A stretch of DNA of 64,000 bases from Cryobacterium tepidiphilum (GTDB taxonomy: Bacteria > Actinomycetota > Actinomycetes > Actinomycetales > Microbacteriaceae), in the NCBI RefSeq assembly GCF_003716325.1, contig NZ_RDSR01000003.1, forward strand, positions 1-64,000, given 5' to 3'. Positions 10,886 to 24,834 of this stretch are shown here, in pieces (position 1 is the first letter of the stretch; each line of letters begins with the position of its first letter). The notes under the pieces were generated by a model that saw only the letters and a program-made list of their open reading frames with translations, made no database searches and was not told the origin of the DNA. Made by a program: the position numbers and the translations under genes.

Positions 10886-11199
10886 TTCCTCCGCGGGCGC
10901 AGCGGCACCGTGTTGCCGGTGTCACCGATATCGTCGTCGGGGCCCGCGTCATCCGCTGCCGACACCAGCCCCAATGGGCGGCCATTGCCACGCTGCGCGG
11001 GCTGGGGCTCGTAGGCGAGGGCGAGCACGCGCGCCCGGTACGCGGCGATCCGTTCGACGACCTCATCCATCGACTCGGTCACGATGTACTTCGCGCCATC
11101 GACCATCACGAGGGTGGTGTCGGGGTTCGAGTGGATGCGTTCGATGAGGTCGGGATTGATCGCAAATCGACTGTCGTTCAGCCGCGTGACTACGATCAT
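10882..11199 (-). CDS. flbD: FlbD-family flagellar protein
   Basis: The first ~65 residues (MIVVTRLNDSRFAINPDLIERI, then GAKYIVTESMDEVVERI) match the small FlbD/SwrD family, which sits next to motAB in many Gram-positives and raises motor torque in Bacillus subtilis. An acidic tail extends it. Three in-frame starts exist: ATG 11229, 11208 and 11199. I chose 11199 because AGGGA lies at a suitable distance and the product then begins like other family members. The leader contains GGA-loop hairpins (11200-11238). Confidence 0.8.
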   Translation of the reverse strand: MIVVTRLNDSRFAINPDLIERIHSNPDTTLVMVDGAKYIVTESMDEVVERIAAYRARVLALAYEPQPAQRGNGRPLGLVSAADDAGPDDDIGDTGNTVPLRPRRK

Positions 11200-11238
11200 G
11201 GGTTCCATCCCTGTTCTTGCGCGACTCATCCTGAGTCG
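11200..11238 (-). promoter_or_regulatory. Candidate CsrA-binding hairpins in the flbD-motA-motB leader
   Basis: Two stem-loops are readable in the minus-strand leader. CGACTC-AGGAT-GAGTCG (11238 to 11222) has a perfect 6-bp stem with GGA in the loop. GGG-ATGGAA-CCC (11211 to 11200) touches the chosen ATG and again shows GGA in the loop. GGA in a hairpin loop is the known CsrA recognition feature; binding here is inferred. If translation began at the upstream ATG 11229, the hairpins would be coding. Confidence 0.5.
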
Positions 11239-11248
11239 TCAAGCACCA

Positions 11249-11275
11249 CTGTCGGCCGACCCGCCGTCGCCGTTA
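11249..11275 (-). promoter_or_regulatory. Sigma-28-type promoter for flbD-motA-motB
   Basis: On the minus strand TAAC, exactly 15 nt, then GCCGACAG. It differs by one base from the fliC and flgB promoters and lies ~50 bp upstream of flbD, in the gap after flgE. It would start the stator transcript independently of the flgB operon. Confidence 0.7.
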
Positions 11276-11397
11276 GGCGCGGGTTTCACCCATCAGTGGT
11301 AGGGGGATGCGTTTCCCTCTCCGCGAAACCGGAGTCGTGGTCGTTTTCAGCGACGTTCAGCGGCCACGACTACGGTTTCCCGTCGAGGAGGGGGTTA

Positions 11398-12570
11398 TCA
11401 GCGCTTCAGGTTGGTGAGCTCCTGCAGCACCTCGTCGGACGTGGTGATGATGCGGGCGTTGGCCTGGAAGCCGCGCTGGGCGACGATCAGGTTGGTGAAC
11501 TCCTGCGACAGGTCGACGTTCGACATCTCGAGGTAGCCGCCGGAGAGCGAGCCGAGGCCCGCGGAGCCGGCGGGGCCGGTGATGATGGCACCGGAGTTGG
11601 CGCTCGCGCGGTAGGTGGAGCCGCCCGCCTTCTCCAGGCCGCCCGGGTTCGCGAAGGTGCTGAGGGCGATGCGGGCGATCGGGGCGATCGCGCCGTTGGA
11701 GAACGACCCGGAGATGGTGCCGTCGTTGCCGATGCTGTACGACTCGAGCGTGCCGGCGTTGCGGCCGTCCTGGCTCGACATGGCGATGCTCGTGACGCCC
11801 GCGAAGCTCGTGACGCCGCCGAACTCGTACGTCACGCCCGAGGCGGCGTCGGTGATGGTGCCGCTGCCCTGGAGCTCACCGTCGGTGAAGGCGAGGGTGC
11901 CGAGGCTTGTCCCACCGGCGCTGACATCCCAGCCGCCGGCCGAGACGCTCTTGGTGAAGGTCAGCTGCGTGGTGCTCTTGTTGCCGAGCGCGTCGTACAC
12001 CGGAACGTCGCGGGTGAGGACAGCGCCGTCGGCCTCGTCGCCGGGGAGGTTGCCCGTGAAGATCGCGTTCGTGGTGGCCTGGGCGGGGGCGACGGTCTCC
12101 TTCGTGAGCGTGATGTTTCCCACGGCCCCCGTGTCGGTGATGACGCCGTTCTGCGCGGTCCAGCCCTGCACGAAGGCGCCGTCGCTGGTGACCAGGCGGC
12201 CGTCGGAGTCGAAGCCGAACGCCCCGTTGCGGGTGTAGAGCGCCTCACCGCCCACCTGAACGGTGAAGAATCCGTCGCCGTTGATCATGAGGTCGGTGGC
12301 CTTGCCGGTGGCCTGCGCCGAACCCTGGGTGAAGTTGGTGGAGATCGCCGCCACCTTCACGCCGAGGCCGATCTGGGCGGGGTTGGTGCCGCCGGCCTGG
12401 GCCTGCGCGCCACCGGCGCCCTTGATCACCTGCGAGAGGGTGTCCTCGAATTCGGCGGTCGACGCCTTGAAGCCCACGGTGTTGACGTTGGCGATGTTGT
12501 TGCCGGCCACGTCGAGCATGGTCTGGTGGGCACGGAGCCCGGAGATTCCGGAGTAGAGCGAGCGAAGCAT
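11398..12570 (-). CDS. flgE: Flagellar hook protein FlgE
   Basis: The 390-aa product begins MLRSLYSGISGLRAHQTMLDVAGNNIANVNT, the rod/hook-family N-terminus, and ends with the matching C-terminal helix (EFTNLIVAQRGFQANARII). The middle holds the variable hook domains. FlgE polymerises into the hook universal joint. AAAGG upstream supports the ATG at 12570. It is the only hook-type flgE/F/G gene in the window, and no flgF or flgG is present. It is the last gene of the flgB operon, followed by a gap holding the flbD promoter. Confidence 0.94.
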   Translation of the reverse strand: MLRSLYSGISGLRAHQTMLDVAGNNIANVNTVGFKASTAEFEDTLSQVIKGAGGAQAQAGGTNPAQIGLGVKVAAISTNFTQGSAQATGKATDLMINGDGFFTVQVGGEALYTRNGAFGFDSDGRLVTSDGAFVQGWTAQNGVITDTGAVGNITLTKETVAPAQATTNAIFTGNLPGDEADGAVLTRDVPVYDALGNKSTTQLTFTKSVSAGGWDVSAGGTSLGTLAFTDGELQGSGTITDAASGVTYEFGGVTSFAGVTSIAMSSQDGRNAGTLESYSIGNDGTISGSFSNGAIAPIARIALSTFANPGGLEKAGGSTYRASANSGAIITGPAGSAGLGSLSGGYLEMSNVDLSQEFTNLIVAQRGFQANARIITTSDEVLQELTNLKR

Positions 12571-12580
12571 GGTGTGCCTT

Positions 12581-13039
12581 TCAGTTGGCGGGCGTGGTGG
12601 GTGCGGCGGATGCCGGCGGTGCGGTGGCGACGCCGGCGATGGCGTCGAGGGCGATGTCGGCGCCGCCGACGGTGACGAGGGGAACCGGGCCGGCGAAGGA
12701 GACGGCGGTGGCCGTGCCGCTGACGGTGGCGCCGTCGGCATCCGTGTAGCTGACCTGCTGGCCGACGAGGCCGGCGGCGGCCATGCGCATCTGCAGGGAG
12801 AAGTTCTCGTCGCTCGTGGTGGAGAGGGCGGTGATCTTCTCCATCATGGCCAGCTGCGTCGTCTGCGAGATCATCTGGTTCGTGTCCATGGGGGAACTCG
12901 GGTCCTGGTTGCGCAGCTGGGTCACCAGGAGGGACATGAACACCTCGGAGTCCATGGTCTGTTTCGGCTCGCGCGTGGCCGTGGGCGTGGTGTACATGCC
13001 CGCGGTGCGCGCGGCCGGGGTGACGCTGTCGATCGTCAT
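12581..13039 (-). CDS. flgD: Flagellar hook-assembly scaffold FlgD
   Basis: The 152-aa protein contains the FlgD N-terminal signature (residues ~30-70: MDSEVFMSLLVTQLRNQDP, then MDTNQMISQTTQLAMMEKI). It is short: beyond it there is only a small beta domain (VGQQVSYTDADGATVSGTATAVSF) and an Ala/Pro tail, as in many Gram-positive FlgD proteins. FlgD caps the growing hook. AAGGAG lies 9 bp before the ATG at 13039; the long open frame upstream is fliK in another frame. Confidence 0.92.
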   Translation of the reverse strand: MTIDSVTPAARTAGMYTTPTATREPKQTMDSEVFMSLLVTQLRNQDPSSPMDTNQMISQTTQLAMMEKITALSTTSDENFSLQMRMAAAGLVGQQVSYTDADGATVSGTATAVSFAGPVPLVTVGGADIALDAIAGVATAPPASAAPTTPAN

Positions 13040-13052
13040 GGTGGGTCTCTCC

Positions 13053-14480
13053 TTAGGCCAGTACGTCGATGAGGGAGGATGCCGAGTGCCGACGGGAGGA
13101 GGCGGGGATGGCGGGCTCGACCGCGTGCCGGGGCGCTCTCGCCCGGTCCTCGACGGCCGACCGCGCCTGCCGGTCGGGGTTCTGCCCGGTGTCGGGCGCC
13201 TGGTCGTGTGCTGACAGGTCGAGGTTCGTGGACAGCGCCGAGGAGCCGGCGAGGTCGCGGCGCAGGTCGGGGAGGATGGCGCGCAGCGCGTCGCGGCCGG
13301 CGTCGTTCGGAGCGAAGAGCTCGACGTGCACGCGGTCTGCGGTGACGTGCGCACGCACGGTGACCGGGCCCAGAGTGTCGGGGGTGACGGTGACGGTGAC
13401 CACGTGCTCCCCCGGGCCTGCCGCGGCGAGCGAGAACACCGGACCCGCGATCTGTGTGGCCAGGGGTGCGGGCGCTGTGGCGGGCGCGGCGGCCGCGGCG
13501 GGCGCTGCGGGCGCCACGGCACCGGGCGCCGTCACCGTGGCCGAGCCGGAGGCGGGAGCGGGTACCGGTGCGGCGGCCGATGCCGGGTCGGCGGGCGTCG
13601 CGGGCCCGGCGGTGAGCGCATCTGCGGGCGCGTCGACGGCGGATGCCGCGGGATCCGGTGTGACGGCCGCGTCCGGGAGCGCCGGCGTCGTGGCGGGTGC
13701 GGGCGGGGCGGGTGCAGCGGTGGTGGATGCGGCCGAGGTGGCTGCGGCTGCCTTTACGGGCACGCCGGGCACCGCGGCGGGCGCGGTCGCCGGCGGGGCG
13801 GTGGCGGCGGTCGTCGCGGGAGTGGCGGGCGCGGCGGACGAAGCGGAGGACGGCACTGCGGGGGCCGTTCCTGCGGACACCGTCCCTCCGGGTACGGTCG
13901 CGGACACCATCCCTGCGGGCACCGTCGCTGCGGATACCGTCGTGGCGGGCGCCGCTGCGGGGCCCACCGCTGCTCGGCCCGCGACGGCCGGGGCTGCCGA
14001 GGCGGGACCGGCGGCAGCCGTGCCCGCAGTGGTTCCCGCTTCGCCCTGGCCGGGCTTCGCCGGTGCGATCGCGGTCGCGCCCGCAACCGGAGCGGCCGAA
14101 GCAGCAGCCAGGGCGGGCACGGCGCCGGACGGCGCACCGGCGACTGCGACGACGGAGGCTCCGGCCGCAGCGGGGGTACCGGCGACGGCGGTGCCGGCGG
14201 CGGTTCCGGCGACGAGCGGTGCGGCCTGGGCGAACACCGCCGGAATGACCAGGGGCGCGGCGGCGCCCGCGCCGGCATCCGTTGCGGTGCCGTCGGATGC
14301 GTCGTCGGCGCCGGACGCCGTCGATCCGGTTGCGGCGGACGTCGCGTGGTCGGCGGTCGGGGCCACGGTGTCGCTCAGCACGGCGGCGAAGGCACCGTCA
14401 TCGGAGGGCGCGCCCGGGCGGGACGCGGCCTTCGCGGCCGGCGCCGCGGGCGGTGGCGTGGTTCCGAGCAACAGGCTCAT
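13053..14480 (-). CDS. fliK: Flagellar hook-length control protein FliK
   Basis: A 475-aa protein composed of ~340 residues of very low-complexity Ala/Pro/Thr/Gly sequence followed by a compact C-terminal domain (EHVVTVTVTPDTLGPVTVRAHVTADRVHVELFAP) that matches the FliK Flg_hook domain. FliK measures hook length with its extended N-terminus and triggers the FlhB substrate switch with the C-terminal domain. The extreme composition makes this region prone to recombination. AAAGGAAG precedes the ATG, which overlaps the upstream peptidase stop (ATGA). Confidence 0.9.
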   Translation of the reverse strand: MSLLLGTTPPPAAPAAKAASRPGAPSDDGAFAAVLSDTVAPTADHATSAATGSTASGADDASDGTATDAGAGAAAPLVIPAVFAQAAPLVAGTAAGTAVAGTPAAAGASVVAVAGAPSGAVPALAAASAAPVAGATAIAPAKPGQGEAGTTAGTAAAGPASAAPAVAGRAAVGPAAAPATTVSAATVPAGMVSATVPGGTVSAGTAPAVPSSASSAAPATPATTAATAPPATAPAAVPGVPVKAAAATSAASTTAAPAPPAPATTPALPDAAVTPDPAASAVDAPADALTAGPATPADPASAAAPVPAPASGSATVTAPGAVAPAAPAAAAAPATAPAPLATQIAGPVFSLAAAGPGEHVVTVTVTPDTLGPVTVRAHVTADRVHVELFAPNDAGRDALRAILPDLRRDLAGSSALSTNLDLSAHDQAPDTGQNPDRQARSAVEDRARAPRHAVEPAIPASSRRHSASSLIDVLA

Positions 14481-15211
14481 GAGGCGCTTCCTTTCACGAT
14501 GGAGGCGAGTGCTGCCGAGAGCATGTCGCTGCCGCCGGCGCCGAGCCCGGCCCCGGGTCCGCCGAGCCCAGTGCCGCTGAGCGCGGTGCCGCCGAGCCCT
14601 GCCGTGCCGGCGAGGGCGGCCACGGCGGATGCGGCGGTCGGGGCCGGCGAGTCGGGGATGACGCGGCGGATGGTGTCGATGTCGGAGTCGTCCATGTAGG
14701 CGTCGACGAGGCAGACGGTGCGGCCCTCGTACGGCGCGTGGATGACCTTGTGGTCGCCCGCGTAGATGAGGATGTGGTCGCCGCCGCCGGTCACGATGAG
14801 GTCGCCCGGCTTGGCCTCGGCGAGCGAGCCGACCTCGGTTCCGACGGTCATCTGCCCGGAGACGAGGCGCGGCATGTCGATGCCGAGGTCGCCGTACACG
14901 CGCTGCACGAGCCCGGAGCAGTCCATGCCGCTCGCGTCCTCCCCGCCGAAGACGTAGGGCACACCGAGGTACTTCTCCGCTGCCGCGACCACGTCGGAGC
15001 CGGTGGCGGCGCCCGGGTTCGCCGGCGCGGTGGCGGTGCCGGTGGAGGTTGCTGCCGCGGCGCCGAGCGCGCCGGCCAGCGACGTCGCGAATCCCGCCGA
15101 TCCGGCGGTCGCGGCCGTGGCACCCGTCGACGCCGGTGCCTGCACGCCGCGGAGCTGCTGGAGTGTGGACTGGATCTGCTGGATGCGGCCCATCGCCTCG
15201 ATCATCGTCAT
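14477..15211 (-). CDS. NlpC/P60 (C40) peptidase in the flagellar operon
   Basis: Residues 1-70 form a helical segment and an Ala/Thr linker; residues ~72-195 are an NlpC/P60 domain with catalytic Cys98 (MDCSGLVQR), His146 (GDHILIYAG) and His158 (VIHAP). Such enzymes cut peptide cross-links in peptidoglycan. Lying between fliJ and fliK, it probably opens the wall for the rod, the job of the FlgJ muramidase in other bacteria. No signal peptide is visible, so export through the flagellar apparatus is plausible. AGGAGG 8 bp before the ATG at 15211 fixes the start. Confidence 0.88.
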   Translation of the reverse strand: MTMIEAMGRIQQIQSTLQQLRGVQAPASTGATAATAGSAGFATSLAGALGAAAATSTGTATAPANPGAATGSDVVAAAEKYLGVPYVFGGEDASGMDCSGLVQRVYGDLGIDMPRLVSGQMTVGTEVGSLAEAKPGDLIVTGGGDHILIYAGDHKVIHAPYEGRTVCLVDAYMDDSDIDTIRRVIPDSPAPTAASAVAALAGTAGLGGTALSGTGLGGPGAGLGAGGSDMLSAALASIVKGSAS

Positions 15212-15639
15212 CGGCCGGCCTCCTGGTCGCGGTGCCACCCGGTGGAGGCGATCTCGTCGAGGACCACCTGCTCCTCGTGCCGCTCCTCGCGGGCGGCCTC
15301 CTCGGCGTGCCGGGCGGCGAGCTTCTCGAGGCCCACGGCGCTGGCTCGGGCCAGGTCGAACGCGGCCTGCGCCTGCTGCACGCCGGTTTCGTGGTGCCGG
15401 CCGAGGGCGTCGAGGTCGGCGAGCATGCTGCGTGTGGAGGCGCGGGCGGCGGCGAGCGCGTACAGGGCTTCGACGCTCGTCGCGTCGGCGGAGGTCGCGC
15501 CCAGGGCGCCGCGCGCCCGGTCCCGGCGCACCCGGCTCTCGCGCAGCCGCGCGTTGGCGGCGGCGAGCTCGCTCGCCGCCTGGTCCTGCTGCAGCTGGCG
15601 CAGTCGGAGCAGTCCGGAGAGCGGGAAGACGCGGGCCAT
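15208..15639 (-). CDS. fliJ: Flagellar export chaperone/stalk protein FliJ
   Basis: A 143-aa protein that is almost entirely alpha-helical coiled coil (LRLRQLQQDQAASELAAANARLRE, later AARHAEEAAREERHEEQVV). FliJ is the coiled-coil stalk that links the FliI ATPase ring to FlhA. Sequence conservation in the family is low; the MARVFPLSGLLRLRQ start, the coiled-coil pattern and the position directly after fliI support the call. The ATG at 15639 overlaps the fliI stop (TGATG). Confidence 0.88.
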   Translation of the reverse strand: MARVFPLSGLLRLRQLQQDQAASELAAANARLRESRVRRDRARGALGATSADATSVEALYALAAARASTRSMLADLDALGRHHETGVQQAQAAFDLARASAVGLEKLAARHAEEAAREERHEEQVVLDEIASTGWHRDQEAGR

Positions 15640-16982
15640 CAGTTCACTCCCAACAGGCCGGTGAGGTGGGTGAGCCGCGCCCACGTCTCGGCGGCCTCGG
15701 TCTGGTCGTCCATGCGCTGGCGCAGGAACGCATTGATCGCGGGTTCGTGGTCGACGGCGGCGTCGACGAGCGGGTTGGTGCCGCGCTGGTAGGCGCCGAC
15801 GTCGAGGAGGTCCTGCGCACCCTTGCGCGCGGCGAGCACCGTGCGGAGCGCCGTGGCGGTCCGGGTGTGCTCGGGCGTGTTGACGCGGGAGGCGACGCGG
15901 GAGATCGAGGCGAGCGGGTCGACGGACGGGAAGTGTCCGACGACGGCGAGCTTCCGGTCGAGCACGACGTGGCCGTCGAGGATCGAGCGGGCGGCGTCGG
16001 CGATGGGCTCGTTGTGGTCGTCGCCGTCGACGAGCACCGTGTAAATGCCGGTGACCGAGCCCGTCTCCCCGGTTCCGGCGCGTTCGAGCAGCTGGGCGAG
16101 CAGCGAGAACGTCGATGGCGGGTATCCGCGCGTCGCGGGCGGCTCCCCCACCGACAACCCGATCTCGCGCTGCGCCATGGCCACGCGGGTCAGCGAGTCC
16201 ATCATGAGCATGACGTCGGCGCCCTGGTCGCGGAAGGACTCGGCGATGCGGGTGGCGACGAACGCGGCCCGCAGTCGCATAAGCGCCGGCTCATCGGAGG
16301 TGGACACGACGACGATGGAGCGGGCCAGGCCCTCCTCGCCGAGGTCGTCTTCGAGGAACTCGCGGACCTCGCGCCCGCGTTCGCCGACCAGCGCGATGAC
16401 CGACACCCGGGCATCCGTGCCGCGGGCCACCATCGACAGCAGCGACGACTTGCCGACGCCGGATCCGGCGAAGAGGCCGAGGCGCTGGCCCCGACCCACG
16501 GTCGTGAGAGTGTCGAGCACGCGCACGCCGAGCTGCAGCGGCGTCTCGATGCGGGCGCGGTGCATCGCCGAGGGGGTCTCGTTCTGCAACGGGACGAAGG
16601 TGCTCGCCTCGAGCGGGCCCTTGCCGTCGATGGGGCGGCCGAGTCCGTCGAGCACCCGTCCGAAGAGCCCGGCCCCGGTGGGCACCAGCAGCGGGGCGCC
16701 GGTGGAGCGGGCGGGCGCGCCGGCCGTGATGCCGTCGAGGCGGCCGAGTGGCATGCAACGGATGCCGTCCCGCGTCGTCGCGACGACCTCCGCGTCGACC
16801 CGGGGGCGCTCGCCCACGGTGATGAGGTCGCCGATGGCCGCGCGCAGGCCCGTGACCTCGAGTCCGAGCCCCACGATCGACGAGACCACACCCACCCGTT
16901 CCGGCTGCGCGGCAGCGCGCGCAGCGACGAACGACAGCGGGTTGTGGGCTGTCGTGCGGGGGGCCGGGGGCGCGATGGTCAT
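15639..16982 (-). CDS. fliI: Flagellar export ATPase FliI
   Basis: A 447-aa F1-beta-like ATPase. The Walker A loop is at residues 172-179 (AGSGVGKS) and Walker B at MLMMDSLTRVAMAQREIG. The FliI-specific ATRGYPPSTFSLLAQLLERAG segment follows. FliI hydrolyses ATP in the cytoplasm to release chaperones and unfold substrates for export. It overlaps fliH by 4 bp and fliJ by 1 bp. Confidence 0.97.
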   Translation of the reverse strand: MTIAPPAPRTTAHNPLSFVAARAAAQPERVGVVSSIVGLGLEVTGLRAAIGDLITVGERPRVDAEVVATTRDGIRCMPLGRLDGITAGAPARSTGAPLLVPTGAGLFGRVLDGLGRPIDGKGPLEASTFVPLQNETPSAMHRARIETPLQLGVRVLDTLTTVGRGQRLGLFAGSGVGKSSLLSMVARGTDARVSVIALVGERGREVREFLEDDLGEEGLARSIVVVSTSDEPALMRLRAAFVATRIAESFRDQGADVMLMMDSLTRVAMAQREIGLSVGEPPATRGYPPSTFSLLAQLLERAGTGETGSVTGIYTVLVDGDDHNEPIADAARSILDGHVVLDRKLAVVGHFPSVDPLASISRVASRVNTPEHTRTATALRTVLAARKGAQDLLDVGAYQRGTNPLVDAAVDHEPAINAFLRQRMDDQTEAAETWARLTHLTGLLGVN

Positions 16983-17602
16983 CGATTCTCCCGGAGGAGG
17001 GCGGCCCTGGCCCGCTCAAGGGCCGAGGAGATGCGGGCGTCGAGGTAGCCGTCCGGGAACTCGGTGATCGCGTCGCCGCGGCTGAGCGTGGCATCCGCGG
17101 TGAACCGCACGCCGGCGCGGGCGCGCGCCTCGGCATCGATGAGTGCCAGGTCGGCGGGGTGCATGCGCACGACGCGCACGAGGTCGACGTCGACCTCGTG
17201 GAGGGCGCGGGCGAGGGCGGCGCGGGCGCTGCGGGGCTCATCGTCCAGTTCGTAGCCGAGCACCGCCTCGGCCAGGTCGAGGGCGGCCGCAGCCAGGGCG
17301 CCGTGGGCGTCGGCGAGCACCGGGACGGTGCGGTCGTCGAGGGCGCGCGTCGCGGCGGCGAGCACCGCAACGGCCCTCTCGTGCTTGGCGCGCAGCTCCC
17401 CCACCACCGCCTGGTGGTCGGCCTCGAGGCGTCGCACCCGGGCCTCGACCTCGGAGCGGGCCGCGCGGAGGCCGTCCGTGTAGCCGGTGGCGTGGCCGCG
17501 GGCCCGCGCCTGCTCCTCGAACCCGGCGCTCACGTCGTCGCCGAGACGCGGGAAGCTCACTGCCGAAAATGCGGGGCGGGAGGAGGTGGCGTCAGAGAAC
17601 AT
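16979..17602 (-). CDS. fliH: Flagellar export ATPase regulator FliH
   Basis: The 207-aa product has an Ala/Arg-rich central coiled coil (RSEVEARVRRLEADHQAVVGELR) and a C-terminal domain of the FliH/V-ATPase subunit E type (VDVDLVRVVRMHPADLALID). FliH dimers bind FliI and tether it to the C ring. The ATG at 17602 lies inside the end of fliG (11-bp overlap). The family assignment rests on the pattern and on the fliG-fliH-fliI order. Confidence 0.9.
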   Translation of the reverse strand: MFSDATSSRPAFSAVSFPRLGDDVSAGFEEQARARGHATGYTDGLRAARSEVEARVRRLEADHQAVVGELRAKHERAVAVLAAATRALDDRTVPVLADAHGALAAAALDLAEAVLGYELDDEPRSARAALARALHEVDVDLVRVVRMHPADLALIDAEARARAGVRFTADATLSRGDAITEFPDGYLDARISSALERARAALLRENR

Positions 17603-18611
17603 AGTCGTCCTCGTCTCCGCGCAGCACGGTGATGCTGCCCTGCGCTTCGAGGTCGCGGATGGCGCGGACGATCTGCGCACGCGCTTCCTCCACCTGCGAC
17701 ATGCGCACCGGGGGCGCCGATTTGATCTCGTCCTCGAGGATCTCCCGGTTGCGTTCGGACATGTTGGCCCGGATGACCTCGGCGACCGACTCGGTGGTGC
17801 CCTTCATGGCGATCGCGAGCACGGCCGCGTCGATGCCGCGCAGCACCTGCTGCACGTCGCGGCTGTCGAGCTTGACGATGTCGGCGAAGGTGAGCATGCG
17901 CGAGCGCACCTCTTCGGCGAGGTCGGGGTCGCGGGCCTCGAGTCCATCGAGGAGCGCGCGCTCGGTGGCCGCGCTGGCCCGGTTGATGATCTCGACGAGC
18001 GGCTGCACGCCGCCGACCACCTCGGTGGCCTCGCGGGAGGACACGACGGCGCCGGCCCGGATCTTGAGCGTGTCGGCGACCACGCGCACCGCCTCGGGCG
18101 CGGCACTGCCCATGGTGGCGATGCACTGGGCGACGTCGGTGCGCAGGGAGTCATCGAGGCCGCCGAGCACGGCGGAGGCGTGCTCGGGCCGCAGGTGGGC
18201 GAGGATGAGGGCGATGGTCTGCGGCAGTTCGCCGTCGAGGAGGGTCTGGATCTGGCCGGGCTCCGCGGTGTCGAGGAACTCGAACGCCTTGCCCGCCATC
18301 GACGAGGCCACCCGGTTCATCACGCCGGCGGCCTTCTCGGCGCCGAAGGAGGCCTCGAGCAGTCCGACGGCGAAGTCGCGGCCCCCGCGGGCGCCGCGCG
18401 CCCCGCGGACGGTGAGGCTGTGGAATTCTTCGAGGGCGCTCTCGGCCACGGATGCGTCGACGCGGCGCAGGCGCACGATCTCGGCGGCGATCTCCTCGGC
18501 CTCGACCTCGCTGAACTGCTTCATGACCTGCGCGGCGCGCTGCTGGTCCATGTTCATCAGGACGATGGCGGCCTTCTGGGTTCCGCTGAGTGCGGTCAGT
18601 ACCTCGCTCAT
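17592..18611 (-). CDS. fliG: Flagellar motor switch protein FliG
   Basis: A 339-aa FliG of normal length: N-terminal FliF-binding domain (LSGTQKAAIVLMNMDQQRAAQVMKQ), central domain, and C-terminal torque domain (FADIVKLDSRDVQQVLRGID, then MSERNREILEDEI) with the charged residues that contact MotA. FliG joins the MS ring to the C ring. Its ATG overlaps the fliF stop by 4 bp. Confidence 0.97.
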   Translation of the reverse strand: MSEVLTALSGTQKAAIVLMNMDQQRAAQVMKQFSEVEAEEIAAEIVRLRRVDASVAESALEEFHSLTVRGARGARGGRDFAVGLLEASFGAEKAAGVMNRVASSMAGKAFEFLDTAEPGQIQTLLDGELPQTIALILAHLRPEHASAVLGGLDDSLRTDVAQCIATMGSAAPEAVRVVADTLKIRAGAVVSSREATEVVGGVQPLVEIINRASAATERALLDGLEARDPDLAEEVRSRMLTFADIVKLDSRDVQQVLRGIDAAVLAIAMKGTTESVAEVIRANMSERNREILEDEIKSAPPVRMSQVEEARAQIVRAIRDLEAQGSITVLRGDEDDYVL

Positions 18612-20215
18612 ACCGGCTGCCTGTCATCCATGAGGCCGCGGAGGAAGTCGGCGGCCTTCTGCGGGTCGCGCCCGGCGAGGGAGTCGATCTCGGCGCGCCG
18701 GCGGCTGGCCTCGGCGGTCGCGCCGTCGGGGGGCTCGGGGGCCGGCGGCGGGGCGATCAAGAGCGGAACGGTGGGCGCTTCGAGCCCGGCCGGCATGGCG
18801 GTGCCCTCGAGCGCGGCGGGCGCCTCGGAGAGCTCACCGAGTTCGATCGACTCGCGGGTCTGCCTGCGGGAACGCCGGGCGTAGAGGATGAGCCCGAGCA
18901 CGAAGGTGATCACGGCTCCGCCGACGATGATGGCCAGGCGCACGATCGCGGCAAACCGCTCGGCCGCGGCCTGCTGCTCGGCCTGGGCCAGCGCATCCGC
19001 TGCCGCCTTGGCGCCCGCGCTGTTGAAGCTCACGCTCGCCACCGTGACGGCGTCACCACGGGTGGTGTCGATTCCGGCGGCGGCGGTCACGAGGTTGGTG
19101 ATGTCGTTCACGTTCACGCCCGAGGTGGCGTCGGCGTTCAGCGCGACCGAGACGGTCTGCCGGGTGACGGCGCCGGCCGGGATCGTGCGCTCCTCGGTGA
19201 CCTTGTTGAGCGCGTTGTTTCGCGTGGTGTCCTCGGAGGTGAAGGTGCCGTCCTTGCCATCGGTCCCGGCGGGCACGGCGATGTTGTCGGGCCCGAGCAC
19301 GCCGGCCTGGGATCCGCCGGCACCCGTGTACGTCTCCTTCTTCACGGCCTCGTTCAGGGCGGGTGCCTGCGTCGGCGAGGTGTAGGTCTCGGAGGTCTGC
19401 TGCGCGGACTCGCGGCTCATGTCGGCGGCGACCACGACCGTGGAGTTGCCGGGGCCGACCACCTTGTCGAGCATGGTCTGCACGGCGGTGCGCACCCGGC
19501 TCTCGTAGTCGGAGGCCTGCTTGTCGGCGGAGCCGGTGGCGCCGACGCCGACGGCGGAGAGCACGACGCCCTGCGCGTCGATGACGGCGACGTCGGTGGG
19601 CGCCATGTTCTCGATCGACGCGGAGGTGAGGTGCACGATCGCCTGCACCTGGTCGCTGGAGAGGGTGACGCCGTTCTGCGTCTCAACGAAAACGGATGCC
19701 GTCGGGTCTTTCTTGGTGGAGACGAAGACGGTCTCCTCGGGGATCGCCAGCCGCACCGAGGCCGTCTTCACGCCCTTCATGGCCTCGATGGTGGAGGCGA
19801 GTTCCCCTTCGAGTGCCCGCTTGTAGGTCACCGACTGCTGGAACTCCGACGCCGTGACGCCCATCTTGTCGAGGAGGGAGTATCCGCCGGTCGAGGAGGA
19901 GGGCAGGCCGGCGGCGGCCGCCTTCAGGCGCTCGTCGTAGACGTTGTCCTTGGGCACGAGGATCGTCGCGCCGCCGTTGCTCAGCTGGTAGGGGATGCCG
20001 TCGGTGTTGAGCTGGTCGACGATGGAACTGGCATCCGTTGCGCTGAGCCCGGAGAACAGCGGCGTGTACGACGGTTTCGTCGCCCACATGGTCAGTGCCG
20101 CGACGCCGAGGACGAGCACGGCGACGCCGATGATCGCGACCGTGCGCTGCGCGAGGGTGAACTCGCGCAGCGTGGCGGCGAAGCGGCGGAACGCCGAGGA
20201 GACCTGGGTGGGCAT
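18608..20215 (-). CDS. fliF: Flagellar MS-ring protein FliF
   Basis: A 535-aa protein with two membrane segments, one near residue 30 (VAIIGVAVLVLGVAALTMW) and one near residue 440 (LAIIVGGAVITFVLGLILYA), flanking the periplasmic ring-building domains (SGLSATDASSIVDQLNTDGIPYQL). The C-terminal cytoplasmic tail binds FliG. FliF forms the MS ring on which the basal body is built. It overlaps fliE by 1 bp and fliG by 4 bp. Confidence 0.97.
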   Translation of the reverse strand: MPTQVSSAFRRFAATLREFTLAQRTVAIIGVAVLVLGVAALTMWATKPSYTPLFSGLSATDASSIVDQLNTDGIPYQLSNGGATILVPKDNVYDERLKAAAAGLPSSSTGGYSLLDKMGVTASEFQQSVTYKRALEGELASTIEAMKGVKTASVRLAIPEETVFVSTKKDPTASVFVETQNGVTLSSDQVQAIVHLTSASIENMAPTDVAVIDAQGVVLSAVGVGATGSADKQASDYESRVRTAVQTMLDKVVGPGNSTVVVAADMSRESAQQTSETYTSPTQAPALNEAVKKETYTGAGGSQAGVLGPDNIAVPAGTDGKDGTFTSEDTTRNNALNKVTEERTIPAGAVTRQTVSVALNADATSGVNVNDITNLVTAAAGIDTTRGDAVTVASVSFNSAGAKAAADALAQAEQQAAAERFAAIVRLAIIVGGAVITFVLGLILYARRSRRQTRESIELGELSEAPAALEGTAMPAGLEAPTVPLLIAPPPAPEPPDGATAEASRRRAEIDSLAGRDPQKAADFLRGLMDDRQPV

Positions 20216-20514
20216 CAGGCCTGCATTCGCATGATCTCGTTGAACGCGTCGACGCCCTTGTTGCGCACGGCGGCCACGAGTTCGAGGGTGACCTGGGCCC
20301 GGCTCGCGGCGATGGTGGCGGCGTGGATGTCGGTCAGGTCACCGGTCACGGCCGCGACGGCGAGCTGGTTCGAGGTGGACTCGAGCTGCTGCAGCCCGTC
20401 GACGGCGCCACCGAGGCTCGCGCCGAAAGCCGACCCGTCGGTGGACGGGACGGCCTTCGAGGAGATGTCGGTCGCGCTGACAGCCGGCAGGGAGCCGATG
20501 GCGGGGATGGGCAT
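20215..20514 (-). CDS. fliE: MS-ring/rod junction protein FliE
   Basis: A 99-aa protein with the FliE pattern: a variable N-terminus, then SFGASLGGAVDGLQQLESTSNQLAVAAVTGDLTDIHAATIA and the conserved VTLELVAAVRNKGVDAFNEIMRM C-terminus. FliE links the MS ring to the rod. It lies between flgC and fliF with 1-bp overlaps, as in most Gram-positive flgB operons. Confidence 0.95.
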   Translation of the reverse strand: MPIPAIGSLPAVSATDISSKAVPSTDGSAFGASLGGAVDGLQQLESTSNQLAVAAVTGDLTDIHAATIAASRAQVTLELVAAVRNKGVDAFNEIMRMQA

Positions 20515-20906
20515 CAGTTGCGTCCGATCTGCAGGGCGGCCTCGTACGCGGTCTTCGCGCGGTCCACGACGGCGGCGTTAGCCTGGTAGCCGCGCTGCGC
20601 CATGATCAGCTCGCCCATCTGCTCGGCCATGTCGATGTCCGGGTAGCGCACGTAGCCCTCCGCGTCGGCCAGCGGATGGTCGGGCGAGTAGACGAGGCGG
20701 CCTTCGGCGTCGCCCAGCGCGGCTCCCGCCACGTAGGCGCCGCTCACGCCCTCCCCCGCCTGGGCGAGAACATAGCGGGCCTGGAAGGCGTTGCCGCTCG
20801 TGGGCGAGGCGTTGTTGGCGTTGGCGAGGTTGTCGGAGACGGCGTCCAGCCACTTGCGGTGCAGGGTGAGGCCGGTGGAGGCGATCCCGATCGCGTCGAA
20901 CGTCAT
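20514..20906 (-). CDS. flgC: Flagellar basal-body rod protein FlgC
   Basis: A 130-aa rod protein with the family N-terminus (IGIASTGLTLHRKWLDAVSDNLANANN) and the FlgC-type C-terminus (ADAEGYVRYPDIDMAEQMGELIMAQRGYQANAAVVDRAK). FlgC is a proximal rod subunit with FlgB. It overlaps flgB and fliE by 1 bp each. Confidence 0.95.
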   Translation of the reverse strand: MTFDAIGIASTGLTLHRKWLDAVSDNLANANNASPTSGNAFQARYVLAQAGEGVSGAYVAGAALGDAEGRLVYSPDHPLADAEGYVRYPDIDMAEQMGELIMAQRGYQANAAVVDRAKTAYEAALQIGRN

Positions 20907-21247
20907 CAGTTGGTCCTGAGCGCGGCGCGCATGAAGGAGAACTGGTGGTTGGCTGCCTGGCTCGCGAACTGGTACCGCAGCACCGTGTCGATGTTCGAGA
21001 GCGTCTCGGTGTCGAGGTTGACGTTGTTGCCGTTGGTGTTGGTCGGCTCGAGGGAGGTGGCGGTCGTCGGCGTCGCCTGCCCGTCCCCCGCGGCGACCGA
21101 CGCGGCCAGGGCGTCTTCGAAGGCCACCCGCTTCGCGTGGTAGTCGGGCGTGTTGACGTTGGCGATGTTGTTGGCGATGGTGCGCTGGCGGAGCGCCAGG
21201 CCATCCAGGGCGCTCGAAAGCGCCGTGGCGGTCACGGAATCGAACAC
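20906..21247 (-). CDS. flgB: Flagellar basal-body rod protein FlgB
   Basis: A 113-aa rod protein with the FlgB signature RQRTIANNIANVNTPDYHAKRVAFEDAL and the C-terminal RYQFASQAANHQFSFMRAALR. It starts with GTG and is the first gene of the 12-gene rod, MS-ring, export ATPase and hook operon (flgB to flgE). Directly upstream are two GGA-loop hairpins and a strong sigma-28-type promoter. Confidence 0.95.
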   Translation of the reverse strand: MFDSVTATALSSALDGLALRQRTIANNIANVNTPDYHAKRVAFEDALAASVAAGDGQATPTTATSLEPTNTNGNNVNLDTETLSNIDTVLRYQFASQAANHQFSFMRAALRTN

Positions 21248-21274
21248 GACAAAACCCGCTTCATGTCGAACGAA

Positions 21275-21315
21275 GGCCGGTCCGTGGCCGAGAGGTGCGA
21301 GCGATCCGTGCTCGC
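21275..21315 (-). promoter_or_regulatory. Tandem candidate CsrA hairpins in the flgB leader
   Basis: Two stem-loops follow each other in the ~70-nt leader on the minus strand. GCGAGC-ACGGATC-GCTCGC (21315 to 21297) has a perfect 6-bp stem. GGCC-ACGGACC-GGCC (21289 to 21275) has a 4-bp stem. Both loops read ACGGA(T/C)C, so GGA is presented identically twice. Paired GGA loops are what a CsrA dimer bridges; binding is inferred. Confidence 0.6.
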
Positions 21316-21321
21316 TGTTAG

Positions 21322-21348
21322 CTATCGGCGCTCACTCAGGTTTCGTTA
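21322..21348 (-). promoter_or_regulatory. Sigma-28-type promoter for the flgB operon
   Basis: Minus strand TAAC, 15 nt, GCCGATAG, about 75 bp upstream of the flgB GTG. It is identical in both boxes and in spacing to the fliC promoter. It is unusual because flgB operons are early genes that are normally not sigma-28 dependent. Confidence 0.75.
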
Positions 21349-21377
21349 GACGTGTGCGGGATTTTCTTTTCTCCCGG

Positions 21378-21683
21378 CTATCCGGCGACGTCGAGGTAGA
21401 CGGATGCGGCGGTGTTGCGGAGTGCGGGGATGCTCCGGAGCGCGGTGAGGTGCGCGGCCGTCTCGCGCTTGGCGCTCTCAAGCTCGGCCACCCGCATCCG
21501 CTGTGCGCGGTTCAGGGCCTGCGCGCGTTCGACGAGGGCCTCGGGGATGAGGCCGAGTCCGGCCGGGGGGACCCAGCCCGTCGTCGGCTCCCCCGCCATG
21601 GCGAGGCTGGCCTCGAGCTCATCGAGCACGAGCTCCCACGCCGCCAGGTGGGGTTCAAGGGTGGTCTGCTCAAGCGACGCCAA
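21378..21683 (-). CDS. Small helical protein after fliS, FliT-like by position
   Basis: A 101-aa, mostly alpha-helical protein (LEPHLAAWELVLDELEASLAM, then RAQALNRAQRMRVAELESAKRET) with no motif I can name. It follows fliS with a 14-bp overlap, where many flagellar loci carry the FliD chaperone FliT, so a FliT-like role is plausible but unproven. The start codon is TTG; GGAGG 6 bp upstream strongly supports it. It ends ~30 bp before the flgB promoter. Confidence 0.65.
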   Translation of the reverse strand: MASLEQTTLEPHLAAWELVLDELEASLAMAGEPTTGWVPPAGLGLIPEALVERAQALNRAQRMRVAELESAKRETAAHLTALRSIPALRNTAASVYLDVAG

Positions 21684-22107
21684 GGGTGCCTCCGATGTTC
21701 GTGACCGGCGCCTGCGCGGGCAGCATCGCCGCCGCTTCGTGCCAGGTCTGCCGCAGTGGTTCGAGCAGCGCGATGCTCTCGCGGGTGCGCTCGATGTCGT
21801 GGTGGATGTTGGCGCTGATCATCGCCGTGGACACATAGGTGTAGAGGGCCATCAGGCCTTCGCCGCCGTCCCACGCGTCGACCCTCAGCGTGGAGGAGAG
21901 CTCGGAGACGATGGCCTGCGCGTGCAGCAGGTTCTCGCCGGCGACGGACCAGTTCTCGGCCGACTGCGCGGCTTCGGCCCGGCCGAGGTCGAGCAGCAGG
22001 CGGTCGTAGAGCATCGTGAGCAGGCGCACCGGGGTGGCGGAGAGGATCGCGTCCTGATTGTACTGGGAGCGCTGGGCGTAGGGATTGGTGGTCATCGACA
22101 TCATCAT
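21670..22107 (-). CDS. fliS: Flagellin export chaperone FliS
   Basis: The product (about 145 aa) has the FliS pattern: YAQRSQYNQDAILSATPVRLLTMLYDRLLLDL at the start and GLMALYTYVSTAMISANIHHDIERTRES in the middle. FliS binds the C-terminus of FliC and prevents early polymerisation. The start is ambiguous among three consecutive ATGs (22107, 22104, 22101) and ATG 22095; the first overlaps the fliD stop (TGATG). No Shine-Dalgarno is evident, so coupling to fliD translation is likely. Confidence 0.93.
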   Translation of the reverse strand: MMMSMTTNPYAQRSQYNQDAILSATPVRLLTMLYDRLLLDLGRAEAAQSAENWSVAGENLLHAQAIVSELSSTLRVDAWDGGEGLMALYTYVSTAMISANIHHDIERTRESIALLEPLRQTWHEAAAMLPAQAPVTNIGGTLGVA

Positions 22108-23447
22108 CAATTCGAACTCGGGAGGCTGGCGAGCTGGGAGGAGAGGTAGGACTGTTGCTTGTTGAGGTTGCTGAGCTGCACCTCGAGCGCGGCGTAGGTG
22201 CGCTCGAGGGTGGTGCGGCGGTCGGTGAGGCGCCTGTCCCAGCTGTCCACCTGCGTGCTGAGGTCCTTGACCTCCGACTGCTGGCCGCTGATGACCTGGC
22301 TGAGGGTTCCGTCGTACTTGTCCGAGATGCCGGTCGCGGCGTCCGAGACCCGGGAGGCGATCTCCTGCAGCGCCGCCTTGGTCGCGACGGGGTCCTTGGC
22401 CAGCGCTGCCTTGAACGCGTCCTGGTCGAAGTCGATGGAGCCCGACTTGTTGATGCTGATCCCGTACTCCGACGGCGAGATGCCGTCGACGGGGAGCGTG
22501 GCGGCGGAGAGCAGGCTCTCGTTCACGTCGCGCACGGTGCTGTCGCTCGTGAAGACGCCGCCCTTGACGCTGGTGGTGCCCGAGGAGTCCGTGTTGGTCG
22601 TGACGGCAGACTTGCTCGCGATCTCCGAGAAGATGCCGTTGAGTGACGCCACGAGGTCGGAAGCGCTCTTGGAGATGGCGTTGTCGTCGCGCTTCACGGT
22701 GATGCTGACCGGGTCGATGGAGACGGCGGAGACGGTCAGCGACACCCCGGGGAGCAGGTCGGTGAACGTGTTGCTCGTGGAGGTGATGGTCTGGGCCGCG
22801 GGGGTGCCGGCCCAGATCGTGATCGAGGCGTCCTGCGCGGCCTGGATCGGGGTGGTGGCCAGCGGCGTCGCCGTGCCGCTCCCCTGGTACAGCGTGAACG
22901 CACCGTCGGCGCCGATGGTGTTCGAGGTGAACTGGAGACGGTAGTTGCCGCCGCCGATCGAGACCTTCGTGGCGGTGATGCCGGCATCCGACGTGTTGAT
23001 CGCCGAGACCATGTCGTCGAGCGAGGTCGATGCGGCGGTGATCTCGTGGAGGGTGCCGTCGCTGCTCTCGACCGTGAGCACGGGAGGCGACGCGGGCCAC
23101 TGCGTCATCGACGCCGAGACCGACTTCTGCGCGTAGGCGAGCTGGTCGACGGTGACGTCGAGCTGGCCGGGGGCGGCGGCGGAGGTTGCGGTCGCCGTGA
23201 CATCCGAGGAGCTGCTGGTGGCGGAGTAGAGGTCGAGGGCCGCGGGCGCGGCGGTCTTGCCGGCGAGGTCGGCGAGGGACGCGACCTTCGTGTTGAGCCC
23301 CTGCAGGGCGGTGACGAGGGTCTGCGCCTCGGAGACCTTGTTCTTGAGAAGGGTCTGCGGGACGGCCTCGACCTGCATGAGGGAGTTGATGAGCGCCGTG
23401 GTGTCGAGGCCACTGACGAGACCGTCGATGGCGAGAGTCGATCCCAT
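22107..23447 (-). CDS. fliD: Flagellar filament cap protein FliD
   Basis: A 446-aa HAP2/FliD: N-terminal coiled segment (SGLDTTALINSLMQVEAVPQTLLKNKVSEAQTL), central FLAgellin-hook-like region (TNTFTDLLPGVSLTVSAVS) and C-terminal coiled coil (VDSWDRRLTDRRTTLERTYAALEVQLSNLNKQQSYLSSQL). FliD caps the filament tip and places flagellin. GGAGGA upstream supports the ATG. A strong hairpin separates it from fliC, so it may be expressed at a lower level by read-through. Confidence 0.96.
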   Translation of the reverse strand: MGSTLAIDGLVSGLDTTALINSLMQVEAVPQTLLKNKVSEAQTLVTALQGLNTKVASLADLAGKTAAPAALDLYSATSSSSDVTATATSAAAPGQLDVTVDQLAYAQKSVSASMTQWPASPPVLTVESSDGTLHEITAASTSLDDMVSAINTSDAGITATKVSIGGGNYRLQFTSNTIGADGAFTLYQGSGTATPLATTPIQAAQDASITIWAGTPAAQTITSTSNTFTDLLPGVSLTVSAVSIDPVSITVKRDDNAISKSASDLVASLNGIFSEIASKSAVTTNTDSSGTTSVKGGVFTSDSTVRDVNESLLSAATLPVDGISPSEYGISINKSGSIDFDQDAFKAALAKDPVATKAALQEIASRVSDAATGISDKYDGTLSQVISGQQSEVKDLSTQVDSWDRRLTDRRTTLERTYAALEVQLSNLNKQQSYLSSQLASLPSSN

Positions 23448-23490
23448 GGTTCCTCCGAGGTGTCGAACGGATGATGCTGGTTACGAGAAA

Positions 23491-23543
23491 AGCTGGTGGC
23501 GCCGGCGGATGAGGTCCAGTTCATCCGCCGACGGCCACCAGCT
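23491..23543 (-). terminator. Terminator hairpin between fliC and fliD
   Basis: A 22/23-nt near-perfect inverted repeat (arms starting AGCTGGTGGC and ending GCCACCAGCT) with an 8-nt loop, followed on the minus strand by TTTTCTCG. This is a classic intrinsic terminator for the highly expressed flagellin gene. fliD begins ~45 nt beyond it with no recognisable promoter, so partial read-through is likely. Confidence 0.8.
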
Positions 23544-23584
23544 GGTGCTCACCGTCAGGTGCCCGGTGGGCTCAGCCGCTCCGC

Positions 23585-24772
23585 TTAGCGGAGGAGCTGC
23601 AGCACACCCTGGTTGGACTGGTTCGCCTGCGCGAGCATGGCCGTGCCGGCCTGCGACAGGACGTTCGCCCGGGTGAACTTGACCATTTCCTCGGCCATGT
23701 CGGTGTCGCGGATGCGCGACTCGGCAGCGGTGAGGTTCTCCTTCGAGACGCTCAGGCTCTTGATCGCCGACTCGAACCGGTTCTGAGCGGCACCGAGGGT
23801 GGCGCGAGCGGTCGAGATGTTGGTGATCTGCTGGTCGAGGACCTTGATGGCCGCCTGAGCGTTCGCCGCGGTGTCGAACTTGACGCCCGTGACGGTCGCG
23901 CCCGTCGACCCACCGGTGGCAAGGCCCGCTGCCGGAGCGGTCGCGGTGTCGACCGTTCCGCCGTCGAGGGCCGTCACGACGATGCCGGTGCCCGCACCGT
24001 TCGCGTCCTTGGTCACGGAGACCGAGAAGTTGGCGGAGAAGGCGGCGTCCGAACGCAGCGCGGTGGCGTACTCGTCCACGCTCTGGAACCCTGCGGCACT
24101 GCCGTCGGCGGTGTCCGCCAGCGTGCCGGTGGTGACCGAGGTGGTCACGCCGGCGGCCGTGGTGCTCTCGAACGTTGCCGCTGCGGTGGTGAGCGAGGCG
24201 AGCGTGGTGGCGAACGACGAACCGGTCGCCGTGGTCGAGCCGCTGTTGAGCGCGGTGGCGACAGCTGCGACGTTGGCGCCGCTGAGGTCGACCGCGATCT
24301 GGCTGCTGGCGTCGCCGTCGGCGCCGACCTGGAACTTCAGCGACGACTGCGAACCGTCAAGCAGCTGGATGCCGTTGAAGTTCGTGGAGTCGCTGATGCG
24401 GGCCAGCTCGTCGGTGAGGGCCTTGGCCTCGGTGCTGATCGCAGCGCGCGAGTCGGCGTTGTTCGAGTCGTTACCGGCCTGCACGGCGAGGTCGCGCATG
24501 CGGTGCAGGATGGAGTGCACCTCGGTGAGCGAGCCTTCAGCGGTCTGGATGACCGAGATGCCGTCCTGCGCGTTGCGGGCGGCGACGTTCAGGCCGCTGA
24601 CCTGCGAACGCAGTCCCTCCGAGATCGCCAGGCCTGCTGCGTCATCCGCGGCGCGGTTGATGCGGAGGCCGCTGGAAAGCTTCTCCAGCGACTTCGACAG
24701 GTCGTTCTGCGTTCCCGACAGGTTGCGGTACGAGTTGAGCGCCGCAATGTTGGTGTTGATCTGCATACCCAT
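23585..24772 (-). CDS. fliC: Flagellin
   Basis: A 395-aa flagellin: conserved D0/D1 N-terminus (INTNIAALNSYRNLSGTQND, then SSGLRINRAADDAAGLAISE) and C-terminus (AAESRIRDTDMAEEMV, ending QANQSNQGVLQLLR) with a Ser/Thr/Ala-rich variable domain (~residues 170-300). No cysteine is present. GGAGGAA 7 bp before the ATG at 24772 fixes the start; the open frame extends further upstream but is leader. Transcription is from a sigma-28-type promoter and the leader carries two candidate CsrA sites, one over the Shine-Dalgarno. Confidence 0.97.
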   Translation of the reverse strand: MGMQINTNIAALNSYRNLSGTQNDLSKSLEKLSSGLRINRAADDAAGLAISEGLRSQVSGLNVAARNAQDGISVIQTAEGSLTEVHSILHRMRDLAVQAGNDSNNADSRAAISTEAKALTDELARISDSTNFNGIQLLDGSQSSLKFQVGADGDASSQIAVDLSGANVAAVATALNSGSTTATGSSFATTLASLTTAAATFESTTAAGVTTSVTTGTLADTADGSAAGFQSVDEYATALRSDAAFSANFSVSVTKDANGAGTGIVVTALDGGTVDTATAPAAGLATGGSTGATVTGVKFDTAANAQAAIKVLDQQITNISTARATLGAAQNRFESAIKSLSVSKENLTAAESRIRDTDMAEEMVKFTRANVLSQAGTAMLAQANQSNQGVLQLLR

Positions 24773-24780
24773 GGTGAATT

Positions 24781-24821
24781 CCTCCGTGATCTGGGTGTTG
24801 GTGCGCCTACCCATCCGTGGG
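24781..24821 (-). promoter_or_regulatory. Candidate CsrA sites in the fliC leader
   Basis: On the minus strand CCC-ACGGAT-GGG (24821 to 24810) is a short hairpin with GGA in the loop. About 25 nt downstream ACGGAGG (24787 to 24781) contains the Shine-Dalgarno itself. An upstream loop site plus an SD-overlapping site is the arrangement by which CsrA blocks hag translation in Bacillus subtilis. Binding here is inferred. Confidence 0.6.
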
Positions 24822-24834
24822 CCGGCACTGTGAG

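Follow-up and report, generated by a model that had tools for sequence, protein, structure and literature searches.

GGA-loop hairpins in the flagellar leaders of Cryobacterium tepidiphilum and other Actinomycetes: conserved candidate sites for CsrA

Flagellar operons and leader hairpins in the window

We analysed a 64,000-nucleotide (nt) stretch of Cryobacterium tepidiphilum DNA (contig NZ_RDSR01000003.1, positions 1 to 64,000; hereafter the window), in which the leaders of three flagellar operons carry short hairpins with GGA in the loop, as expected of sites for the regulator CsrA. The genome is 2.86 megabases (Mb), and the guanine-plus-cytosine content of the window is 70%. The minus strand carries most of the flagellar genes, comprising a gene for a FliA-like sigma factor, fliC-fliD-fliS, flgB-flgC-fliE-fliF-fliG-...-flgE and flbD-motA-motB-...-fliOPQR-flhB-flhA-...-csrA; flgN-flgK-flgL-fliW is divergent from these, on the plus strand. 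Flagellar gene names that have neither Pfam nor tblastn support are presumptive, assigned from likeness of the translations; in the flbD run this holds for every name besides flbD and csrA. The three operon heads and their promoter motifs are:

20906..21247, minus strand: flgB, GTG start, head of flgB-flgC-fliE-fliF-fliG-...-flgE (open reading frame and tblastn synteny)
21322..21349, minus strand: sigma28-type promoter motif of the flgB operon, CTAACG-N14-GCCGATAG (sequence)
23585..24772, minus strand: fliC, flagellin (open reading frame and translation)
24835..24862, minus strand: sigma28-type promoter motif of fliC (sequence)
10882..11199, minus strand: flbD, head of the motA-motB-...-fliOPQR-flhB-flhA-...-csrA run (Pfam FlbD, open reading frames)
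11249..11276, minus strand: sigma28-type promoter motif of the flbD operon (sequence)

The sites behind these promoters, with the two flgB hairpins named stem-loop 1 (SL1) and stem-loop 2 (SL2), are:

21275..21315, minus strand: flgB tandem element, SL1 plus SL2 (sequence, covariance model R1, conservation in relatives)
21315-21297, minus strand: SL1, GCGAGC-ACGGATC-GCTCGC, heptaloop ACGGATC (sequence)
21289-21275, minus strand: SL2, GGCC-ACGGACC-GGCC, heptaloop ACGGACC (sequence)
24803..24828, minus strand: fliC hairpin 1, CCC-ACGGAT-GGG within a longer stem, loop ACGGAT (sequence and fold)
24767..24796, minus strand: fliC hairpin 2, ACCCA/TGGGT, with the CACGGAGG Shine-Dalgarno in the loop and the start codon at the 3' side (predicted fold)
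11222..11238, minus strand: flbD hairpin CGACTC-AGGAT-GAGTCG, pentaloop AGGAT (sequence)
11205..11214, minus strand: GGA site ACAGGGATGG over the flbD Shine-Dalgarno (sequence)

Both flgB hairpins are present as a first-pass annotation of this DNA had described them, and their tandem pattern occurs once in the window, against a mean of 0.00 in 100 shuffles. The ACGGAT loop and the GGA run over the Shine-Dalgarno that it had listed for fliC were also found, the latter inside a predicted hairpin. Of its two flbD loops, AGGAT tops a stem of six pairs, but ATGGAA (GGG-ATGGAA-CCC) is closed by only three; the second site is instead the GGA run over the Shine-Dalgarno. GGA-loop sites do head the flagellin, rod-hook and motor/export operons, as had been claimed.

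Conservation of the leader hairpins

Conservation was assessed in 151 flagellar loci: the window, 90 loci from the same family and a batch of 60 from the order, one of which (L129) also belongs to the family; L and G numbers are our labels for loci and genomes. The family sample comprised 299 genomes, of which every flgC-positive one besides that of the window, 90 in number, contributed its locus. The order sample comprised 396 genomes, 105 with flgC and 97 of these outside the family; the batch, hand-picked for family spread, comprises 59 of the 97 plus L129. Starts and leaders were usable for flgB in 151/151 loci, for fliC in 131 and for flbD in 98, the rest lying off the contig, not being found or having no usable start. 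Two hairpin detectors were applied, a tolerant one that supplies the main figures and a strict one, without mismatches, that undercounts stems with one mismatch. The chance level is the output of the tolerant detector on 20 dinucleotide shuffles per leader.

With the tolerant detector, at least one GGA-loop hairpin was found in 130/131 fliC leaders (shuffle mean 9.2), 145/151 flgB leaders (11.2) and 63/98 flbD leaders (8.2), and 123/151 flgB leaders had two or more (0.3). The strict detector gave, for the family and order batches respectively, 57/78 and 49/52 at fliC, 91/91 and 54/60 at flgB, and 30/51 and 29/45 at flbD. At control gene starts in the same loci the tolerant detector reported flgC 3/151, fliF 4/151, fliD 9/136, motA 6/90, the sigma gene 8/113, fliG 18/150 and flgE 21/137, a range of 2-15%; shuffles carried a hairpin in 2-8%, depending on the leader set. 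The flgE excess consists partly of real hairpins in some lineages and partly of mislabelling (in at least one locus, L111, the best flgE match falls in flgB). The hairpins recur ahead of the same genes in more than 100 relatives. We conclude that they are real, far above chance and strongly conserved.

Upstream of flgE, which encodes the hook, GGA-loop hairpins were seen in L048, L061, L134, L138, L140, L142, L149 and L150. In those lineages the same control may extend to flgE as a further operon head.

Covariation in related genomes had been proposed as a check by the first-pass annotation; stems and GGA loops are kept in relatives, with compensating changes in the stems, and almost always on the sense strand. 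Read on the antisense strand, hairpins appeared in 0/131 fliC, 6/151 flgB and 0/98 flbD leaders. Loop classes follow the operon: heptaloops at flgB (248 counted), hexaloops at fliC (112), and hexaloops (39) or pentaloops (24) at flbD. These observations bear on the idea that the inverted repeats are DNA operators, serving as promoter-proximal targets for a transcription factor. Their palindromic arms, their near-fixed distance to the -10 motif and the separation of the two flgB sites, mostly 22-23 base pairs or about two helical turns, would suit operators. However, the most conserved part is the unpaired, asymmetric loop, the arms differ by site (GAGC, GGCC, GGCCC) and change in pairs that include G-U, the reversed orientation is rare, and the second fliC site is the Shine-Dalgarno itself. 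We consider operators very improbable.

A loose sigma28-type motif was found upstream of fliC in 74/79, flgB in 85/91 and flbD in 49/53 family loci, and upstream of eight internal genes in 0-2. In leaders where it could be measured, the distance from the -10 motif to the first GGA was 18 nt in 49/58 for fliC, 14 nt in 43/65 for flgB and 17-18 nt in 17/23 for flbD. Because this distance is nearly fixed, only a few nt separate the beginning of the first hairpin from the expected mRNA 5' end, all 5' ends here being placed from the promoter motif and unmapped. A GGA hairpin thus stands close behind the sigma28-type promoter of fliC, flgB...flgE and flbD...csrA, conserved in sequence, place and strand, though less so at flbD.

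Hairpins at the extreme 5' end generally protect mRNAs, and those described here might be generic stabilisers with no protein partner. Against this, the AYGGA loops are near-invariant, and one leader behind the same promoter type is nearly hairpin-free; we rate this explanation the least probable of those considered. The leader in question is:

26023..26110, plus strand: sigma28-type promoter motif and leader of flgN-flgK-flgL-fliW, no GGA-loop hairpin, internal control (sequence)

Its promoter was recognisable in 43 of the 107 loci with a flgK start, and a GGA hairpin was present in 6/43, never two. With its leader mostly hairpin-free, the transcript of the CsrA antagonist FliW seems to be exempt from CsrA control.

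In the fliC leader, the hexaloop C-AYGGAH-G was present in 131/131 cases, closed by C-G in all, and so fits the CsrA recognition rule that the first-pass annotation had invoked. Of the hairpin 1 cells in the fliC alignment, 89.8% are paired, compared with 19-53% when slid, and the outer stem shows C-G, G-C, U-A and A-U changes among relatives. ANGGA lies within the last 22 nt of 129/131 leaders, and the hairpin GGA and Shine-Dalgarno GGA are 26-32 nt apart in 108/128. The stem of hairpin 2 reaches at least five pairs in 93/131 leaders vs 274/655 with the 5' side shuffled, and its arms co-vary with the codon after the start (e.g., AGCCG/TGGCT, GCCA/TGGC). The fliC leader therefore resembles the hag/flaA type in layout, with a GGA-loop hairpin (130/131) and a second GGA over the Shine-Dalgarno (129/131).

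A script found the SL1-SL2 pair in 140 flgB leaders (11/151 were without), and in 137 of these the loop-to-loop distance was 20-26 nt. This script mis-picked L028 and L040 (spacings 29 and 36), in both of which covariance model R1 finds a normal pair, and it counted as pairs L131 and L135, whose hairpins look different. In the window SL2 ends 27 nt upstream of the flgB start; its loop lies 34-50 nt upstream in 111/140 leaders, and only 25/151 have ANGGA within the last 22 nt. The flgB leader therefore has two GGA sites near the expected (inferred) 5' end, off the Shine-Dalgarno and spaced for one dimer, as in flhDC. An alignment, A1, of 96 of the 135 eligible flgB leaders (duplicate rows and roughly half of those from the family were dropped) had 86.3% of its cells paired vs 29-41% when slid by 1-3 columns; the covariation score was 0.135 vs 0.071 in shuffles that ignore kinship, and the outer SL1 pairs contribute much of this covariation.

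These 96 leaders, window included, are the ones on which model R1 is based, and matches there are by construction; the independent evidence comes from matches outside the order and from pattern matches beyond the fetched loci. In the window genome R1 scored 49.6 bits at 21270-21317, with the next best match at 19 bits (expect value, E, 1.26). It matched at flgB in 89/90 family and 49/60 order-batch loci, all other matches at E ≤ 0.05 being second copies. Outside the order, a class sample of 197, which seems to be part of the 296 genomes to which R1 was applied, contained 18 flagellates; 10 of these had a match (E ≤ 0.1) at the flgB leader, some 380-465 nt ahead of the flgC start, and 8 had none there; all ten sequences show the tandem pair, altered in some. 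Altogether 76/296 class genomes matched at this threshold, most weakly and unplaced, and most of these are probably chance matches. The exact tandem pattern occurs in at least 119 stretches of named GTDB genomes, with 80 titles among the matches listed, all actinobacteria; of 123 pattern matches among those listed, 113 stand before flgB, 8 before fliH (7 assigned by tblastn, and L186 from the likeness of its N-terminus) and 2 at the ends of loci. Outside this pattern set, a tandem-element match in family genome G562 (C112:1397-1442, E 0.0013) lies in an 88% complete assembly of 200 contigs with CsrA and no flgC match; G562 is probably flagellated, with part of its sequence missing.

In loci with a split basal-body operon, a separate promoter motif and a separate tandem pair precede the second head, which is fliH in six Frigoribacterium-like loci and in L129, and a fliJ-like gene in L069:

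Second tandem copies, before fliH: L181, L186, L202, L211, L214, L224, L249, L297; L129:8067-8113
Second tandem copy, before the fliJ-like gene: L069:13700-13746

The strongest argument for a functional cassette is that the tandem pair turns up at such new operon heads. Several fliH products behind second copies begin MLDS, MLES or MLDP, which is FlgB-like, as if leader and start had been copied together.

The flgB leader, and perhaps that of fliC, could instead serve mainly as an mRNA-borne sponge for CsrA. The flgB mRNA is not expected to be abundant, which counts against a sponge, and the pair heads flagellar operons where checked and reappears at the new head after a split, which cis control fits better. 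What favours a sponge is the resemblance to TwoAYGGAY (RF01731), proposed as a candidate CsrA-binding small RNA of Clostridia with two AYGGAY-loop hairpins (PMC4333381), and the titration of CsrA by the flaA leader reported for Campylobacter jejuni (PMC4894983). Unlike TwoAYGGAY, the hairpins studied here lie in mRNA leaders, in cis, and have no Rfam match: no family, TwoAYGGAY included, reached its gathering threshold over the window, and at E ≤ 10 over 11150-25000 and six loci only chance matches appeared. We judge a sponge unlikely.

Two further base-pairing proposals were examined at flgB. A third hairpin masking the Shine-Dalgarno was rejected, the difference in unpaired probability (0.37 vs 0.46 with the tail shuffled, in 79 family leaders) being too small. 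Duplexes formed between the SL1 5' arm, GAGCACGG, and CCGTGYTC at the flgB start averaged -11.59 kcal/mol vs -11.36 with start regions swapped between genomes, 2/200 swaps being as low; arms and starts change together (Fisher p 0.0018, kinship ignored), and L072-L074, L077, L080 and L081 keep the GAGC arm with a changed start.

The flbD leader is the least conserved of the three. Of 98 flbD leaders, 48 had ANGGA among the 22 nt preceding the query start, a point some 9 nt into the gene. Of the regulon-wide control that the first-pass annotation envisaged, candidate sites are present on three large transcripts but mostly missing from the flgN-flgK-flgL-fliW leader, and flbD sites are much less conserved; its overall interpretation is partly supported, and its further suggestion that the circuit could stand in for FlgM is a conjecture.

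Two inverted repeats lie elsewhere among these genes. One, long, spans 24894-24943 between the sigma gene and the fliC promoter (GTTGAACGCCGC...GCGGCGTTCAAC) and is perhaps a terminator; the other, at 11333-11371 between flgE and the flbD promoter, has arms AGTCGTGG/CCACGACT and is possibly a terminator. The sigma gene is:

24971..25825, minus strand: sigma factor gene, sigma70 regions 2-4, FliA-like by position, start codon not settled (Pfam, translation)

CsrA, FliW and FlgM in flagellated genomes

The window genome encodes both CsrA and its protein antagonist:

824..1132, minus strand: csrA, last gene of the flbD run (Pfam CsrA, 7.9e-23)
28928..29326, plus strand: fliW, CsrA protein antagonist, last of flgN-flgK-flgL-fliW (Pfam FliW, 1.5e-22; matches FliW of 5dmb)

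csrA is single-copy, with one match in the genome, and the best solved chain for its product is the CsrA of 5dmb, an entry that also holds FliW. Within the family sample of 299, all 91 genomes with flgC have a CsrA match, as does one other. In the order sample, 101 of the 396 had CsrA and flgC, 4 flgC only and 2 CsrA only; 17/18 flagellates outside the order had CsrA. CsrA goes with flagella in the flagellated actinobacteria sampled. The distal position of csrA in the export gene run, which the first-pass annotation had pointed out, is confirmed: csrA lies downstream of flgC, on the same strand and within 60 kilobases, in 78/91 family genomes (11 have it on another contig, 2 on the opposite strand). 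FliW was sought by tblastn in the loci only, many of which end before fliW, and was found in 68/151 (53/91 family loci). FlgM, taken to be missing from the outset, gave a match (PF04316) in 0/20 genomes, whereas the control genomes of Escherichia coli, Bacillus subtilis and Thermotoga maritima gave matches. A survey places FlgM among the components lacking in later classes (PMC10746217).

Proposed CsrA-FliW control of the flagellar operons

The hairpins are likely cis-acting CsrA sites, through which CsrA-FliW control would extend from flagellin to the basal-body and motor/export operons. CsrA would bind the leader sites, and FliW, freed on flagellin export after hook completion, would remove it. 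At fliC, CsrA would bridge hairpin 1 and the Shine-Dalgarno hairpin and block translation, as on hag and flaA. The B. subtilis CsrA-FliW-Hag switch likewise combines CsrA and FliW with a flagellin-leader site over the Shine-Dalgarno (PMC7652899, PMC6529632), and the C. jejuni flaA leader has the same plan as fliC here: ANGGA occurs in both of its stem-loops, and the downstream one covers the ribosome site (PMC4894983). Unlike the hag system, CsrA-type sites here also head the rod-hook and motor/export operons; several flagellar mRNAs are CsrA-bound in C. jejuni as well (PMC4894983). Among published titles, searched mostly at title level and with most subscription journals outside coverage, none reported CsrA sites in actinobacterial flagellar leaders.

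Because the flgB sites lie off the Shine-Dalgarno, simple repression of translation is not the first mode to expect at this leader. One CsrA dimer might bridge the two 5'-terminal hairpins; the site spacings, 20-26 nt at flgB and 26-32 nt at fliC, are compatible with dual-site binding, for which an optimum above 18 nt is cited (PMC7652899). By analogy we lean slightly towards protection or activation of the flgB mRNA, or unmasking of its start, with repression as second choice. In E. coli, flhDC has two CsrA sites near its 5' end that protect against RNase E (PMC7652899), a layout similar to that of flgB, and ymdA has two leader sites with an activating effect (PMC7492729). Unlike flhDC and ymdA, the case here concerns a structural operon of Actinomycetes with hairpins conserved across families, and its effect is a prediction. 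Unmasking of the kind seen in ymdA might come on top, if the SL1 arm pairs with the flgB start. At flbD, hairpin and Shine-Dalgarno site together suggest repression, by which CsrA would damp the motor/export genes and csrA itself, in negative feedback. The outcome would be a single switch, with high free CsrA favouring the basal body and free FliW the filament.

A simpler scheme, that of the first-pass annotation, has CsrA bind all three leaders and repress all three operons alike as a uniform checkpoint. GGA at the Shine-Dalgarno in fliC and flbD speaks for it, and repression is the commonest CsrA effect (PMC7492729). The distance of SL2 from the flgB start and the scarcity of ANGGA near that start speak against it, and, since one promoter type is common to early and late genes, uniform repression would leave them unordered. 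We regard it as possible but doubtful.

Several observations weigh against CsrA-FliW control as proposed here, in whole or in part. All locus counts ignore kinship among loci. Hairpins are absent from 35/98 flbD leaders, in several lineages, and by the detector from six flgB leaders (L131, L136, L139, L143, L153, L156), although R1 does find the pair in L139; L086 has lost SL1. The direction of effect we find likeliest at flgB is read from architecture, and pairing of the SL1 arm with the start is a possibility that the duplex comparison weakly suggests. In the C. jejuni study, as far as its available text goes, flgB mRNA was barely CsrA-enriched (1.6x, Table 1) and no tandem flgB element is mentioned; csrA deletion changed FlaA alone among FlaA, FlaG, FlaB and FlgI, and fliW deletion decreased FlaG, FlaB and FlgI, a fall that uniform repression would accommodate (PMC4894983). 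CsrA was unmatched in five flgC-positive genomes, G032, G129, G163 and G185 of the order and G699 of the class, all drafts of at least 450 contigs, with G032 99% and G129 95% complete. At flgB, G129, G185 and G699 carry the tandem element, and G163 has a weak match (E 0.87); in G032 the contig ends before the flgB leader. We take csrA to lie in assembly gaps in these five; true absence would count against CsrA as the partner. As candidates for a natural control, a csrA-less flagellate, all five are fragmented drafts and none is clean.

CsrA-FliW has so far been known mainly for flagellin homeostasis. With a CsrA-type element conserved on the rod-hook operon in many families, it would become a timer for the whole regulon, and this might account for the ordering of flagellar assembly in Actinomycetes that have no FlgM. 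The tandem motif, absent from Rfam 15, marks flagellar operon heads, and the 41-nt element is a simple, testable object for RNA-protein work. A bolder and less probable reading is that in flagellated Actinomycetes, where early and late flagellar operons share one class of sigma28-type promoter and FlgM is missing from the genomes checked, CsrA acts as a two-way switch: free CsrA would keep flgB mRNA active or protected and silence fliC, FliW from its exempt transcript would flip the switch upon flagellin export, and loop size (hepta at flgB, hexa at fliC, penta or hexa at flbD) might grade the affinities and the order of events.

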